Under the pieces are notes generated by a model. It was not told the DNA's origin. It ran no database searches and was given only the letters and a program-made list of their open reading frames with translations. From Paenacidovorax caeni (GTDB lineage Bacteria; Pseudomonadota; Gammaproteobacteria; Burkholderiales; Burkholderiaceae_C), in the NCBI RefSeq assembly GCF_001298675.1, contig NZ_CYIG01000017.1, forward strand, positions 1-64,000: 64,000 nt of DNA, in the 5' to 3' direction. This document shows positions 1 to 58,117 of this stretch, piece after piece. How positions within the stretch are numbered: position 1 is the stretch's first letter; the number at the start of each line of letters is the position of its first letter. The position numbers were made by a program, and so were the translations under genes.

Positions 1-480
1 TGCCGCGTAACTCACTGCGCGCTACGCGCTCCGTTCAAACAGACGCGGCAAGTCAGATCACGAAGCGCGTGTGTCCTGCGGCACACGCGCCCGCCCCACG
101 CCCTGCGCTCCTCGGTACGGCCAGAAGGGGTTTGAAGACGACACGGGCCATCGCTGCGCTCGGCCTGGGGCGCGCGGCGCGCAGCGCCTGCGCGTTGGGG
201 GCCGAGCGTAGCGATGGCCCGTGTCGTCCCTACCCCCTTTCAGGCTGCGCCTGGGGCGAGGCGGTGGTGGGGTGGCATGCGCGAAGTCGCGCATGCTTCG
301 TGAACTGACTCGCTGCGGTTGTTTGAGCGAAGCGCGCAGCGCGCAGCGAGTTCCGCAGCGCACCCCGCCAGCGTCTCGCCCCAGGTGTGCCCCCACGCGC
401 AGCGTGGGGGTCGCAGACTGCGGGGCGCGTTTCTTTGCCTCCTTTCTTGTCGCGCGACAAGAAAGGAGGTCGCCCGCCGG
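1..480. repeat. Nested inverted-repeat block (family 3), gene-free
   Basis: No convincing gene lies before 615. The stretch is built of inverted repeats. The outer arms are about 1-70 and 291-362 and are imperfect, roughly 80 percent by eye. The inner arms are 137-163 and 202-228 and match at 26 of 27 positions. Small perfect hairpins sit at 275-296 (GCATGCGCG arms) and 390-410 (CCCCCACGC arms), and a perfect 32-bp palindrome lies at 438-469. Short open frames here give Arg/Ala/Cys-rich proteins without domains. I recall similar spurious proteins in Comamonadaceae annotations, which suggests a dispersed element. Its function is unknown. Confidence 0.6.
438..469. repeat. Perfect 32-bp palindrome
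   Basis: The half-site CCTCCTTTCTTGTCGC is followed directly by its exact reverse complement. It lies inside the family 3 block. With no loop it could be a dyad protein site or a cruciform. It is not followed by a T run, so it does not look like an ordinary terminator. Confidence 0.8.
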
Positions 481-52930: not shown

Positions 52931-53127
52931 ATTGGAATTCCTCAGGCTGCAGTAAAACGGCGAATCTTGCGGTTCCGGAACATAAAAATCTGTCCGCGCA
53001 ATGACAATCGGACATGTGGTATTCCAGTAGATTATGACCATGCCAGGAATATGGGCGCCACCTCTTGCTGCGGTCGCACGCCCGTTGCGCCCTGCCGCGC
53101 CGCCCGTCCCATTGCCGTAGCACTGCC
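52931..53127. promoter_or_regulatory. Divergent promoter region with two inverted repeats
   Basis: TGTCCG (52991-52996) and CGGACA (53009-53014) form a dyad with a 12-nt spacer. TATTCC (53020-53025) and GGAATA (53046-53051) form another with a 20-nt spacer. Both lie between the LivK-like and Crp/Fnr genes and could be operators for the regulator. Neither matches the CRP or FNR consensus well. Confidence 0.35.
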
Positions 53128-53841
53128 ATGAGCCAAGACCTTTCCCTGCACCAGCGCCGTCGCCCGCCCTCACGCGGCGAGCTCGACGGCATTCCCTGGC
53201 TGGGCCTGCTCGAAGCCGAAGCGCGTGAGCGCGCGGTGGCCACGCTGGTGGTGGGCGACGCCAAGGCGGGCGACTACGTGTGCCGCGTCGGCCGCCCCGT
53301 GACCTACTGGTTCGGCCTGGTGGACGGCCTGCTCAAAATGAGCGCGGACAACGCCCAGGGCGGCACCATGACCTTCACCGGCGTGCCCCCGGGTGGCTGG
53401 TTCGGCGAGGGCACGGCGGTCAAGCGCGAGCCCTACCGCTACAACATCCAGGCGCTGCGCAAGAGTGTCGTGGCGGGGCTGCCGATCGACACCTTTCACT
53501 GGCTGCTCGACCACTCGATTCCGTTCAACCGCTTCGTCATGAACCAGCTCAACGAGCGCCTGGGCCAGTTCATCGCGGCGCGCGAGATCGACCGCCTGGG
53601 CAGCCCCGATGTGCGCGTGGCGCGCAGCCTGGCAGCGCTGTTCAACCCGGTGCTGTACCCCGGCGTGGGCCAGGTGCTGCGCATCACGCAGCAGGAGCTC
53701 GCATACCTCGTGGGCCTGTCGCGCCAGCGCGTGAACGAGGCGCTGGCGGCGCTGCAGGCGCAAGGCGCCATTCGTGTGGAGTACGGTGGCCTGCGCGTGC
53801 TGGACCTGGCTGCGCTTCGGTCCAGTGTGACGGCCCACTGA
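53128..53841 (+). CDS. Crp/Fnr-family transcriptional regulator
   Basis: A 237-residue regulator with an N-terminal cyclic-nucleotide-binding-type fold (about 20-140, FTGVPPGGWFGEGTAVKREP) and a C-terminal winged helix-turn-helix (about 160-225, ITQQELAYLVGLSRQRVNEAL). The cysteine pattern of FNR is absent, so it is not an oxygen-sensing iron-sulfur regulator. The effector is unknown. The ATG at 53128 gives the usual length. It is divergent from the LivK-like gene and probably controls it; this pairing of a binding protein with a Crp-type regulator is known from Burkholderiales, from memory. Confidence 0.88.
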   Translation: MSQDLSLHQRRRPPSRGELDGIPWLGLLEAEARERAVATLVVGDAKAGDYVCRVGRPVTYWFGLVDGLLKMSADNAQGGTMTFTGVPPGGWFGEGTAVKREPYRYNIQALRKSVVAGLPIDTFHWLLDHSIPFNRFVMNQLNERLGQFIAAREIDRLGSPDVRVARSLAALFNPVLYPGVGQVLRITQQELAYLVGLSRQRVNEALAALQAQGAIRVEYGGLRVLDLAALRSSVTAH

Positions 53842-53992: not shown

Positions 53993-54095
53993 TCAGATAA
54001 ACCCGTTCGCCCTGAGCTTGTCGAAGGGCTGCTCGCAAGGAGCGCCCTGGCTTTGACAGGCTCAGCCCGAACGATTGAGGAAGACGTGTCTGAGA
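53991..54095. repeat. Inverted-repeat element with GAGCTTGTCGAAGGGC-type arms
   Basis: The inner arms 54004-54026 (CGTTCGCCCTGAGCTTGTCG plus AAG) and 54051-54073 (the imperfect complement, ending CAGCCCGAACG) belong to a REP-like repeat that I recall as widespread in proteobacterial genomes. The outer TCTCAGA (53991-53997) and TCTGAGA (54089-54095) are perfect 7-bp inverted ends. The element therefore has the shape of a small mobile palindrome placed at the end of the transposase remnant. Confidence 0.65.
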
Positions 54096-54249: not shown

Positions 54250-55143
54250 ATGCATTCATTTTTTCCCTCCTTTACGCTGCGTGCGGCCGTTGCCGCAGCG
54301 GCATTGGCCGTGCTGGCCGGCTGTGCAGCGCCCCGGCCCGACACCGGTTTGCGCGAAACCCTGGTGGCGGTGACGGCCTCGCAGGAACTCATCACCTTCC
54401 AGGCAGCGCAGCCTGACCGCATCCTGGAGCGGCGCCCGGTAACGGGCCTGGCGCCCGGCGAGCGGCTGGTGGGCATCGACTTCCGCGTGGCCAAGGGCGT
54501 GCTCTATGCGCTGTCGCAAGCGGGCCGCCTGTACACGCTCGACATTCCCACCGGTGCGCTGCGCCCTGTCGGCCCCGCGCCTGCCGCGCTGGCACTGCAG
54601 GGTGCGGTGTTCGGCTTTGACTTCAACCCGGCGGCCGATCGCATCCGGGTGGTGTCCAACATGGGGCAGAACCTGCGCCTGCACCCCGACACCGGGGCGG
54701 TGGTCGATGGCGATGCCACCGTAGAAGGTGTGCAGCCTGATCCCAACCTGCGCTACGCCTGGGGCGATGTAAACGCCCGCCGACAGCCCGACATTGCCGG
54801 TGCCGCCTACACCTACAACCCCAACGACAGCAAGATCACCACCAACTACGCGATCGACCGCGCGCTGGGTGTGCTGGTGATGCAGGGCTCACGCGAGGGC
54901 ACCCAGCCGGTGGTTTCGCCCAACGCCGGGCAGCTGCGCACCGTGGGCCCGCTGGGGCTGGGGCCGCTCACGGATGTGAGCTTTGACATTGCCGACGTGG
55001 GCAACACCGCCCTCATTGCCGTGCGCACGGCTGCCGACACCCAGACCCGCCTGCACCAGGTGGACCTGGCCACTGGCGCCACCCGCCCTCTGGGCGTGGT
55101 GGGCGATGGCGCGCCCCTGGTGGGCCTGGCGATCGAACCATGA
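54250..55143 (+). CDS. DUF4394 domain lipoprotein
   Basis: A 297-residue predicted lipoprotein (lipobox LAGC, about residues 21-24) with a DUF4394 domain over the rest. Repeated motifs such as LVGIDFRVAKGVLYALSQAG, DFNPAADRIRVVSNMGQNLR and a Thr-rich YAWGDVNA segment suggest a beta-propeller-like fold. The function is unknown. The ATG at 54250 starts directly before the signal. Its stop overlaps the next start as ATGA, so it is translationally coupled to the cupredoxin-like gene. Confidence 0.88.
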   Translation: MHSFFPSFTLRAAVAAAALAVLAGCAAPRPDTGLRETLVAVTASQELITFQAAQPDRILERRPVTGLAPGERLVGIDFRVAKGVLYALSQAGRLYTLDIPTGALRPVGPAPAALALQGAVFGFDFNPAADRIRVVSNMGQNLRLHPDTGAVVDGDATVEGVQPDPNLRYAWGDVNARRQPDIAGAAYTYNPNDSKITTNYAIDRALGVLVMQGSREGTQPVVSPNAGQLRTVGPLGLGPLTDVSFDIADVGNTALIAVRTAADTQTRLHQVDLATGATRPLGVVGDGAPLVGLAIEP

Positions 55144-55784
55144 GGCTGGCTGGCCCGCTGACGCTGCGACCCGCCACGCTGGCCTGGTTGGCAGCGCTCG
55201 CTGCGCTGGTACTGCTGGCTGGCGGCGCGCAGGCGGGCACGGTGCAGGTCGATGTGTCCGACGCTGCGGGCAAGCCGCTGGCCGATGCTGTGGTGTTTCT
55301 GGACTCGGCCGAGGCCCGCAAGCAGGTCAAGCCGCTCGTTGGCGTGGAGATGGCGCAGGAGAAGCGGCAGTTCGTGCCCGGTGTGCTGGTGGTGCCCGTG
55401 GGCACCGAGGTGCTGTTCCCCAACCGCGACTCGGTGCGACACCACGTGTACTCCTTCTCGCCCGCCAAGAAGTTCGAGCTCAAGCTCTACAGCGGCACGC
55501 CGTCCAACCCGGTGTTGTTTGACAAGTCTGGTGTGGTCGCCCTGGGCTGCAACATCCACGACCAGATGGTGGGCTGGGTGCTGGTGGTGGACACGCCGTA
55601 CTACGCCCGCACCCCTGCGGCCACAGGCAAAGTGCAGCTCGACAACGTGCCGCCTGGCACCTACACGCTACGCACCTGGCACGCCCGCCTGCCTGTGGGC
55701 GCACCGGCCCTGGAGCAGGCGCTGACCGTGCCAGCCACGGGAACGGCCACGGCGGCGGTGCGCATGACGGGGTTGCAGCCTTGA
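55140..55784 (+). CDS. Exported cupredoxin-like protein (methylamine-utilisation type)
   Basis: A 214-residue periplasmic protein with a signal peptide (about 1-32, ending AQAG). Its middle domain resembles plastocyanin-like copper proteins: a VVPVGTEVLFPNRDSVRHHV strand pair with His and a GCNIHDQMVGW loop with Cys, His and Met match a type I copper site. A C-terminal carbohydrate-binding-like or SpaA-type strand region (PPGTYTLRTWHARLP) follows. The family is often labelled methylamine utilisation protein, though no methylamine genes are nearby. It is coupled to both neighbours by ATGA and TTGA overlaps. Confidence 0.85.
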   Translation: MRLAGPLTLRPATLAWLAALAALVLLAGGAQAGTVQVDVSDAAGKPLADAVVFLDSAEARKQVKPLVGVEMAQEKRQFVPGVLVVPVGTEVLFPNRDSVRHHVYSFSPAKKFELKLYSGTPSNPVLFDKSGVVALGCNIHDQMVGWVLVVDTPYYARTPAATGKVQLDNVPPGTYTLRTWHARLPVGAPALEQALTVPATGTATAAVRMTGLQP

Positions 55785-58117
55785 AGCGGCTGCGCCTGGC
55801 CCGGCGCAGCCTGATCCTGCGGCTGGTGGGGTTGTCGTTGCTGCTGCTGCTCATCGTGCAGGCGGCGGGGTTTGCCGTGGTGCGGGCCTCCATCGACCGC
55901 AATGCACGCGCCCAGATCGCGCGCGCCCTCGACCTGGACGAAAACATCTGGCGCCGCCTGCTGGACCAGAACGCGGAGCAACTGCGCCAGGGCTCGGCCC
56001 TGCTGGCGGCGGACTACGGGTTTCGGTCGGCGGTCAACTCGGGCGACGAAGAAACCATCCAGTCGGTGCTGGAAAACCACGGCAGCCGCATCGGCGCGGC
56101 CGTGACTGCGCTGCTGGGCACCGACCTCACGCTGCGTGCGGTCAGCCTCACGGGCAGCATGGACCAGTTTCCGGCCACGCTCCAGCAGGTGGTGCCGCGC
56201 CTCGCGCAACAGCCCCAGGGCAGTCAGATCGCGGTGATGGACGGCGTCCCCTACCAGTTCGTGATGGTGCCCATGCGGGCGCCGGTGGTCATTGGCTGGG
56301 TGCTGATGGGCTTTCGCATCGACCAGTCGCGTGCCGACGAAATGCGCCAGCTCCTGTCCGTGCATGTGGCCCTGATGGTCAAGGCCCCCGGGGGCGCGCT
56401 GAGCCTGCCGGTCAGCACCCTGCCAGCGGACGCACAGGCCTTGCTGCTGGCCAGCGGCGGCGCGGCGGGCGAGCTGCAGACCGCCGAGGGCACCTTGCTC
56501 GCGCGCTCCAGCCCGCTCGACAGCGTGGGGGGCGAGGTGCACTCGCTGCTGCTGCGGTCGGTGGACGAGGTGGTAGCACCCTATCGCCAGCTGCAGGTGC
56601 TGCTGGCCATCATCACGGTGGCCGGTGTGCTGCTGTTTGCCGTGGGCACGGGCCTGGTGGCACAAAGGCTTGCTACGCCGCTGCGCTCCTTGCTGGCAGC
56701 CACGCAGCGGCTGTCGCGTGGCGAATACGACGTGCCGCTGGAGCACACCGACCGCACCGACGAGATCGGCAACTTGGCGCGCTCGTTCGACCACATGCGC
56801 GTGGACATTGGTGCCCAGCAAACCGAAATCCGCCGCCTGGCCTACTGGGACCGCCTGACGGGCCTGCCCAACCGGGAGCGTTTTCGCGACGCCGTGGTGC
56901 AGGCCATTGCCGGCAGTGCCAGCACGCCGCAGCCCCTGGCCGTGCTCACGCTGGATCTGGACCGCTTCAAGCATGTCAACGATGTGCTGGGCTATGCCTT
57001 TGGCGACCGCCTGTTGCAGGCCGTGGCCGAGCGCCTGAGCCAGCAGGTGCTCTCGCCCGATGACATGGTGGCGCGGCTGGGGGGCAATGAGTTCGCCATC
57101 CTGCTGCAGCGCGCCGATGCGGCGGATGCGCACGACATTGCCCAGCGCATCAACCAGTCGTTCGAGGAGCCGCTGGCCTTTGAGGACCAGACGGTGGACC
57201 TGAGCGCTGGCATTGGCTTTGCCTGCTGGCCGGGCGATGCGGGCGACGCCGACACGCTGCTCAGCCGTTCTGAAATTGCCATGTACGCCGCCAAGCGCAA
57301 GCTCAGCGGGGCTCTGCAGTACGACGCGGCGTTTGACTCGTCCAGTGCGCAGACCCTGTCACTGCTGACCGAGCTGCGCCATGCCGTGGAGCACCATGAG
57401 CTGCGTCTGTACCTGCAGCCCAAGGTGCCCCTGCACGGGCAGCCGGGCCTGGCGGCCGAGGCGCTGGTGCGCTGGCAGCACCCGCAGCGGGGGCTGGTGC
57501 CGCCCATGCAGTTCATTCCGTTTGCCGAGCAGACCGGGTTTGTGCGCCAACTTACGCTGTGGATGTTTGAAGAAGTCGCGCGCCTGCTGGCAGACCCACG
57601 CACGCAGGGTCTGCCGCTCAGGGTGTCGGTCAACCTCTCCACCCGCGATCTGCTCGACCCCGAACTGAGCCACCGGCTGGCCGAGATCCTGGTGCGCCAT
57701 GGGGTGGCAGCCAGTGCCTTCTGCCTGGAGATCACCGAAAGCGCGATCATGGACGACCCCCAGCGCGCCGAGGCCATGCTCAACCGCTTGTCAGAGCAGG
57801 GCTTCAAGCTGTCCATCGACGATTTCGGCACGGGGTATTCGTCTTTGGCCTACCTCAAGCGCCTGCCGGTGGATGAACTCAAGATCGACAAATCGTTTGT
57901 GATGGGCATGGAGACCGGTGAGGACGACGCGATGATCGTGCGCTCCACCATCGACCTCGCGCACAACCTGGGACTCACGGTGGTGGCCGAAGGCGTGGAG
58001 ACTGCTGCTATCCAGGATCGCCTGCGTGCGCTGGCCTGCGACGAGGCGCAGGGGTATCACATTGCACGGCCCCTGCCGGTGGATGATTTTCTGGCCTGGC
58101 AGGCCCGCCAGGTCTAG
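55781..58117 (+). CDS. Membrane GGDEF/EAL protein with periplasmic sensor domain
   Basis: A 778-residue protein. TM1 lies at about 8-30, then a periplasmic sensor of about 225 residues, TM2 at about 268-290, HAMP at about 290-345, GGDEF at about 360-510 and EAL at about 525-770. The GGDEF signature is GGNEF (Asn436 for Asp), which should abolish cyclase activity; EAL motifs (AEALVRW, DDFGTGYSSLAYLKRLP) are complete. So it is probably a cyclic-di-GMP phosphodiesterase controlled from the periplasm. The start is TTG at 55781, overlapping the previous stop as TTGA. Coupling with a cupredoxin suggests a copper or redox input, by inference. Confidence 0.9.
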   Translation: MKRLRLARRSLILRLVGLSLLLLLIVQAAGFAVVRASIDRNARAQIARALDLDENIWRRLLDQNAEQLRQGSALLAADYGFRSAVNSGDEETIQSVLENHGSRIGAAVTALLGTDLTLRAVSLTGSMDQFPATLQQVVPRLAQQPQGSQIAVMDGVPYQFVMVPMRAPVVIGWVLMGFRIDQSRADEMRQLLSVHVALMVKAPGGALSLPVSTLPADAQALLLASGGAAGELQTAEGTLLARSSPLDSVGGEVHSLLLRSVDEVVAPYRQLQVLLAIITVAGVLLFAVGTGLVAQRLATPLRSLLAATQRLSRGEYDVPLEHTDRTDEIGNLARSFDHMRVDIGAQQTEIRRLAYWDRLTGLPNRERFRDAVVQAIAGSASTPQPLAVLTLDLDRFKHVNDVLGYAFGDRLLQAVAERLSQQVLSPDDMVARLGGNEFAILLQRADAADAHDIAQRINQSFEEPLAFEDQTVDLSAGIGFACWPGDAGDADTLLSRSEIAMYAAKRKLSGALQYDAAFDSSSAQTLSLLTELRHAVEHHELRLYLQPKVPLHGQPGLAAEALVRWQHPQRGLVPPMQFIPFAEQTGFVRQLTLWMFEEVARLLADPRTQGLPLRVSVNLSTRDLLDPELSHRLAEILVRHGVAASAFCLEITESAIMDDPQRAEAMLNRLSEQGFKLSIDDFGTGYSSLAYLKRLPVDELKIDKSFVMGMETGEDDAMIVRSTIDLAHNLGLTVVAEGVETAAIQDRLRALACDEAQGYHIARPLPVDDFLAWQARQV

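Follow-up and report, generated by a model that had tools for sequence, protein, structure and literature searches.

NspS–MbaA and ScrB–ScrC each combine a periplasmic binding protein with a GGDEF-EAL enzyme, and an exported partner acting with a membrane enzyme of cyclic di-GMP (c-di-GMP) metabolism is an already known kind of arrangement. To our knowledge, many c-di-GMP enzymes of the membrane have no known input, and the sensing of O2, NO or redox state outside the cytoplasm, for leaving or staying in biofilms, is an open question. The luxP and luxQ genes of Vibrio are adjacent. LuxQ reads a separate periplasmic protein (2hj9). IsmP (PA2072) and other CHASE4 sensors, related in periplasmic fold to the sensor described below (8wct, Z 13.0; 8z6n, Z 12.8), pass metal or haem sensing into c-di-GMP, with the CHASE4 domain itself doing the binding; the abstracts of two papers on them mention no cupredoxin partner (PMC10904736, PMC13277305). 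Here we analyse a three-gene locus at positions 54250–58117 of a 64,000-nucleotide stretch of Paenacidovorax caeni (contig NZ_CYIG01000017.1, positions 1 to 64,000; 'the window'), which encodes a DUF4394 lipoprotein, an exported cupredoxin and a membrane phosphodiesterase (PDE) with a large periplasmic sensor. The conserved unit is formed by the last two genes, and we put at about 0.5 the probability that their products make up one envelope signalling unit, with the cupredoxin as periplasmic input of a LuxQ-like dCache sensor.

Like NspS–MbaA and ScrB–ScrC, the locus encodes a membrane GGDEF-EAL enzyme and, next to it, an exported partner; in those systems the partner is a solute-binding protein, with neither a copper site nor a globin. 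The closest fold to the sensor among the chains compared is the periplasmic domain of LuxQ, and by analogy we infer LuxPQ-like two-protein sensing, in which the partner, whose genetic linkage is observed, would bind the sensor encoded next to it. Unlike LuxP–LuxQ, the partner is a cupredoxin and not a protein of the sugar-binding type, the output is GGDEF-EAL rather than a histidine kinase, and no autoinducer is implied. Our literature search gave no description of a cupredoxin–sensor pair among the matches listed, nor of a cupredoxin as partner together with an exported globin and interchangeable outputs.

Linkage of the cupredoxin and sensor genes

Linkage was assessed in 68 sampled loci, taken as stretches of 12.5 kb, or less where a contig ended, surrounding cupredoxin matches of at least 100 bits in an order set (200 genomes, 42 with the cupredoxin) and a phylum set (299 genomes, 49 with it). 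The sample comprises 36 of the 39 order-set rows from outside the window's own genome and 32 of the 34 new phylum-set rows. Those left out are two pieces of one gene in G073, the short contigs of G466 and G422 in the phylum set, and G144, whose 3.7-kb contig carries both cupredoxin and sensor. A second set of named loci consists of the best 80 of 596 matches to GCNIHDxM, or 83 loci with the plasmid ones included, and leans towards relatives of the window.

The sensor gene lay within 3.5 kb of the cupredoxin gene in 51 of the 68 sampled loci, 46 of them with a GGDEF-EAL output. It was nearby for 40/47 cupredoxins scoring at least 180 bits and for 11/21 of the weaker ones. The pairing exceeds chance: at an estimated one such sensor per 4 Mb, well under one of the 68 loci would be expected to have it, as against the 51 observed. 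In the reverse direction, a cupredoxin lies no more than about 3 kb from 28 of the 30 order-set sensor matches of at least 350 bits (the window's own genome included), in one case (G023) only as a broken piece; one of the two misses runs off its contig (G073) and the other stands alone (G026:C228). Four weaker sensors (G171:C1, G179:C7, G102 and G058; 100–184 bits) showed no cupredoxin in the 10–12 kb fetched around them, and two more rows at 100–350 bits are pieces on G153 contig ends, one of them by a cupredoxin. Of 70 homologous pairs measured under a longest-open-reading-frame rule, 19 have an overlap of exactly four bases between the cupredoxin and PDE genes. The pair is conserved across Pseudomonadota, and is also present in two contigs of metagenome-assembled genomes titled Desulfuromonadaceae (L179) and Methylomirabilota (L191).

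An earlier note on this DNA, which made its reading depend on linkage conserved outside the strain, had taken all three genes as the unit. Such linkage exists, across Pseudomonadota, for the cupredoxin and the sensor, and that part of the proposal stands; its DUF4394 part does not, and we reject the trio as a conserved unit, since DUF4394 occurs near only 3 of the 68 sampled cupredoxins and, judged by eye, lies directly upstream of the cupredoxin in 11 of the 50 family-level rows scoring at least 200 bits (own genome included).

The cupredoxin and the sensor-phosphodiesterase

The features of the locus, with the evidence for each, are as follows.

54250–55143, + strand: DUF4394 lipoprotein gene, 297 amino acids, an optional accessory (open reading frame; lipobox ...VLAGC by eye)
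55140–55143, + strand: ATGA stop/start overlap of the DUF4394 and cupredoxin genes (sequence)
55140–55784, + strand: exported cupredoxin gene, 214 amino acids (open reading frame; N-terminal signal by eye)
55335–55592, + strand: cupredoxin domain, residues 66–151 (VIA-align ranges)
55440–55442, + strand: candidate copper ligand His101 (invariant in 29/29 sequences)
55548–55568, + strand: candidate copper ligand loop Cys137-x2-His140-x2-Met143 (invariant in 29/29 sequences)
55781–55784, + strand: TTGA stop/start overlap of the cupredoxin and PDE genes (sequence)
55781–58117, + strand: sensor-HAMP-GGDEF (GGNEF)-EAL phosphodiesterase gene, 778 amino acids, TTG start (Pfam)
55877–56596, + strand: periplasmic sensor, residues 33–272, predicted LuxQ-like dCache fold (dCache_3; AlphaFold2 model; LuxQ structural match)
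56654–56800, + strand: HAMP, residues 292–340 (Pfam)
56840–57301, + strand: GGDEF domain, with GGNEF at 57080–57094 (Pfam)
57371–58072, + strand: EAL domain, catalytic residues intact (Pfam; catalytic-position comparison)

The three genes and their coupling by ATGA and TTGA, as the earlier note had read them, are confirmed from open reading frames and sequence, and so are the TTG start, the intact EAL domain, the GGNEF variant and the type-1 copper motif. Two of the products are envelope proteins, judging by eye from the lipobox of the DUF4394 protein and the N-terminal signal of the cupredoxin, and the large periplasmic sensor ascribed to the third is borne out by its dCache_3 match and its AlphaFold2 model.

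Pfam places dCache_3 (PF14827; 3.5e-16), HAMP (4e-14), GGDEF (8.8e-39) and EAL (PF00563; 8.7e-73) in the sensor-PDE. The sensor model has a predicted local distance difference test score (pLDDT) of 92.1, with long helices flanking the domain, and has the layout of a dCache/LuxQ-type sensor, a periplasmic dCache fold between two membrane helices; it matches LuxQ at Z 16.1 in 3c30 (199 aligned, root-mean-square deviation 3.2) and at Z 14.8 in the LuxP-bound entry 2hj9_C. In the cytoplasmic part, the window has the catalytic Glu/Asn/Asp/Lys/Gln set of an EAL phosphodiesterase; the nine positions checked are all intact, and each is kept in 117–120 of 120 sequences (the window and 119 others, among them L245 and L298 with their different outputs). 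The third position of GGDEF is D or E in 97 of these 120, and exact GGDEF occurs in 59. GGNEF in the window lacks the GG[D/E]EF signature of an active diguanylate cyclase, and the domain is probably regulatory and non-cyclizing. Because the EAL residues are nearly always intact while GGDEF is often degenerate, c-di-GMP breakdown is the likely output.

The cupredoxin matches Pfam only below cut-off (Cupredoxin_1, E 0.021). A search of solved structures with its sequence gave 5fc9 at E 5e-4 and three weaker rows (E 0.017–0.82). Its AlphaFold2 model (pLDDT 93.6) best matches a NirK chain (Z 12.4) and the purple cupredoxin 5fc9 (Z 12.1), and the fold is common to amicyanin/plastocyanin-type cupredoxins and 5fc9 (Z 11–12). 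Since these matches cover model residues ~66–151, and carboxypeptidase D (3mn8, Z 10.6) covers 32..214, the copper domain of the model looks to be inserted in a carboxypeptidase-D-like beta-sandwich. This insertion, and linkage to signalling genes, would set the protein apart from amicyanin-type cupredoxins.

His101 and the Cys137-x2-His140-x2-Met143 loop are invariant in an alignment of the window with 28 relatives from a whole-protein search (L015 left out); in a second alignment Cys, His and Met are invariant by construction, its loci having been found with GCNIHDxM. With the fold and the His/Cys/His/Met ligand set of a type-1 cupredoxin, the protein is predicted to carry a type-1 site and to bind copper. 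The spacing of the loop is that of amicyanin, and annotated relatives are named 'methylamine utilization protein'. A role in methylamine oxidation, or membership of the Mau system, is not supported: the methylamine dehydrogenase light chain (PF02975) has no match in the window's genome, and although 12 of the 200 order genomes have one, only 4 of the 42 with the cupredoxin do (G029, G075, G118 and G157, of one genus), the nearest lying about 93 kb from the cupredoxin on one contig. The name is therefore misleading.

An invariant copper site would also suit the sensing of copper levels, with the cupredoxin binding or handing over copper and the sensor responding to copper load or stress instead of to redox state, and copper recognition has been proposed for a CHASE4 c-di-GMP sensor (PMC13277305). 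The recurrent neighbours do not favour this. Our survey of the 83 named and plasmid loci gave 53 clusters present in at least four loci and 12 in at least ten, of which 45 of the 53 were listed; wrong-frame open reading frames were set aside by eye, and eight real-looking clusters and a Crp-like one were scanned against Pfam. No copper-specific gene was recognised among the recurrent neighbours, with the scan covering the eight non-Crp clusters, one of which is an outer-membrane efflux protein (5/83 loci). Moreover, the ligand set resembles that of an electron-transfer type-1 site and not that of a copper chaperone, and the exported globin found at many of these loci would fit gas or redox chemistry better. 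We consider copper-level sensing quite unlikely.

Exchange of outputs and of accessory genes

In L191, L245, L255 and L273 the output attached to the sensor next to the cupredoxin is a class III adenylate/guanylate cyclase, and in L298, the weakest sensor match (70 bits), it is a Ser/Thr kinase. The five sampled loci with an output other than GGDEF-EAL are L245, L255, L273, L298 and L260, in which none was identified; those of the named set are L191 and four loci cut by contig ends (L126, L144, L176 and L194). Because the cupredoxin stays beside the sensor though the output changes, the constant partner is the periplasmic part. Three sensor residues, D78, P164 and W173, persist in four or more of the five swapped sensors and are missing from three or more of the four unlinked ones; T92, S95 and N99 persist in four of five and are missing from three of four. 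These six of 19 conserved columns, picked afterwards and with the other columns common to all, point weakly to the periplasmic half as a shared partner or ligand site; L298 departs from them most among the swapped sensors. In L260 (2968–4725) the sensor-HAMP protein ends in 231 amino acids without a Pfam match above cut-off and lies ~1.3 kb before the cupredoxin. L297 and L299 encode, near a weak cupredoxin, a histidine kinase that the sensor model does not match.

The genes around the pair are also variable. The window DUF4394 protein belongs to its family by a wide score (PF14339, E 1.3e-71, residues 47–294; 241.1 bits against a cut-off of 29.6), and its sequence gave no match among solved structures at E up to 1. 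Among the 83 named and plasmid loci, the PDE was present in 73, DUF4394 in 24, a truncated globin in 21 and DUF3034 in 19; a tRNA-modification gene, in 10, came next among the real-looking neighbours. The sampled loci have a globin in 31 cases, in 30 of them with DUF3034, a combination more frequent there than DUF4394 (3/68). DUF4394 and the globin occur together in none of the best 80 of 596 loci (Fisher p 0.0005) and in none of the 68 sampled (p 0.16), p-values that serve only as a guide, the loci being related. Conversely, 15 of 28 order-set DUF3034 rows, two of which are pieces of one gene, lie by a cupredoxin.

Among 52 globins, one His, which from its position we take to be the proximal one, is kept in 51, and two cysteines in all 52. 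The hydrophobicity of the best N-terminal 12-mer is at least 2.0 in 49/52 and at least 1.87 in all, by a measure chosen afterwards and without a cytosolic control; an earlier measure on a badly chosen stretch scored 13/52 as hydrophobic and one as lipobox-like, and several globins have lipoboxes by eye. In L178 (5444–5956) the globin by the pair matches Bac_globin weakly (22.9 bits) and, by eye, appears to have no proximal His. Elsewhere, cytochromes fused to truncated globin domains, with a proposed periplasmic action, are described for cable bacteria (PMC11976967), and a paper on Acidithiobacillus mentions a group 2 globin (PMC6450195).

The sensor-PDE tree shows 11 changes of the DUF4394 label (9 or more on starred branches) and 12 of the globin label (11 or more), counts that may be inflated by stretches cut at contig ends. 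From these repeated changes, DUF4394 and the globin seem to have come and gone several times beside the pair. Both also accompany the cupredoxin at loci that lack the sensor, and the cupredoxin therefore appears to be the hub of the locus. The same changes bear on the notion that linkage is without function, an old gene neighbourhood carried by descent. Accessory labels do cluster on the tree, and near relatives have outer neighbours in common, such as the Crp-like gene and a pseudouridine synthase gene, as descent would have it. The pair nevertheless persists as outer neighbours differ, is found on plasmids, and keeps together through the label changes just described, and we regard mere descent as very improbable.

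Single loci add variants. In L270 (3652–9271) one cupredoxin is flanked by two sensor-GGDEF-EAL genes, with globin and DUF3034 close by. The Comamonas aquatica plasmid NZ_CP104280.1 (143 kb; L199) has a complete DUF4394-cupredoxin-EAL trio, adjoining genes for a type IV pilus that include a shufflon PilV. Exported proteins of ~410 amino acids, outer-membrane-like by eye, adjoin cupredoxins in L277 (6677–7903), L271 (6818–8068) and L196 (6579–7802); the two scanned, in L277 and L271, had no Pfam match, and they are possibly a third accessory family.

The cupredoxin as a proposed input to the sensor

In the mechanism that we propose, the exported cupredoxin would be the periplasmic input protein of the sensor, as LuxP is for LuxQ. 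Periplasmic redox or O2/NO chemistry would set its oxidation or metallation state, which would alter its docking on the sensor; the change would pass through HAMP to the cytoplasmic output, here the EAL phosphodiesterase with its putatively regulatory GGNEF domain, and so alter c-di-GMP. DUF4394, or alternatively DUF3034 with the exported truncated globin, might feed or tune the cupredoxin. The cupredoxin would probably report redox state or O2/NO. We infer its redox- or metal-dependent docking, and likewise the signal, the direction of the effect and, as the earlier note had suggested, a breakdown of c-di-GMP governed by copper or redox state.

Several observations weigh against this proposal. 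Over 110 loci, a mirror-tree analysis found no specific cupredoxin–sensor co-evolution: the partial correlation was 0.31 for cupredoxin and sensor versus 0.50 for cupredoxin and GGDEF/EAL, with a bootstrap difference of zero or below in 99%, in a test weakened by large sensor distances (mean 1.63). The order was reversed in the 41-locus globin subset (0.39 versus 0.25). Many other sensor domains score Z 11–14, and similarity of fold does not establish function. The residues lost from the four unlinked sensors are weak evidence, these sensors being simply more distant. In the sample, 17 of 68 cupredoxins stand without such a sensor in their neighbourhood; the cupredoxin occurs without it beside a globin in L261, L262, L266, L267 and L287, and beside DUF4394 in L275 of the sample and in L149, L152, L156 and L163 of the best 80 of 596. 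From these sensor-free loci, the cupredoxin may have work besides the sensor.

The sensor-free globin loci, and a mirror-tree result that is neutral or negative, would agree with the cupredoxin being an ordinary periplasmic electron carrier that works with the globin in O2/NO chemistry, while the sensor-PDE responds to a small molecule that this chemistry makes or consumes, or to the same stress, with no contact between it and the cupredoxin. Direct binding by such sensors has precedent: iron is bound directly by a CHASE4 sensor of similar fold (PMC10904736), and haem or likely copper by other CHASE4 domains (PMC13277305). This explanation sits less well with the tight pairing of exactly these two genes, through to the four-base overlap, while other context changes, and with the survival of the pairing when the output is exchanged; we think it possible but rather doubtful.

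Should the cupredoxin be the input of the sensor, bacteria would read periplasmic electron or O2/NO status directly via a copper redox protein, and the 'methylamine utilization protein', DUF4394, DUF3034 and the exported truncated globin would gain a candidate function. The pair occurs in many environmental bacteria, often together with an exported globin, and suggests an undescribed way to read redox state or gases outside the cell. Because the two genes are widespread, have a metal site that can be interpreted and naturally exchange outputs, this idea lends itself to direct testing. A general class of cupredoxin-gated LuxQ-like receptors, acting through c-di-GMP hydrolysis, class III cyclase or Ser/Thr kinase with globin or DUF4394 supplying the chemistry, is a tentative extension that we hold to be on the unlikely side.

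Upstream of the three genes, a Crp-type regulator gene (53065–53841; cNMP_binding, HTH_Crp_2) has relatives of 71–86% identity within the stretches of five named loci (L120, L121, L123, L124 and L125) and a distant one, of 25% identity, in L161. Between it and the DUF4394 gene, at 54014–54063, the short motif GAGCYTGTCRAAG stands in two opposed copies with 0 mismatches each; the window has three matches to it versus 0.27 expected, one of them elsewhere and with a mismatch. The repeat tool reported no palindrome upstream of the trio, though the two opposed copies lie there and resemble a repetitive palindromic element.

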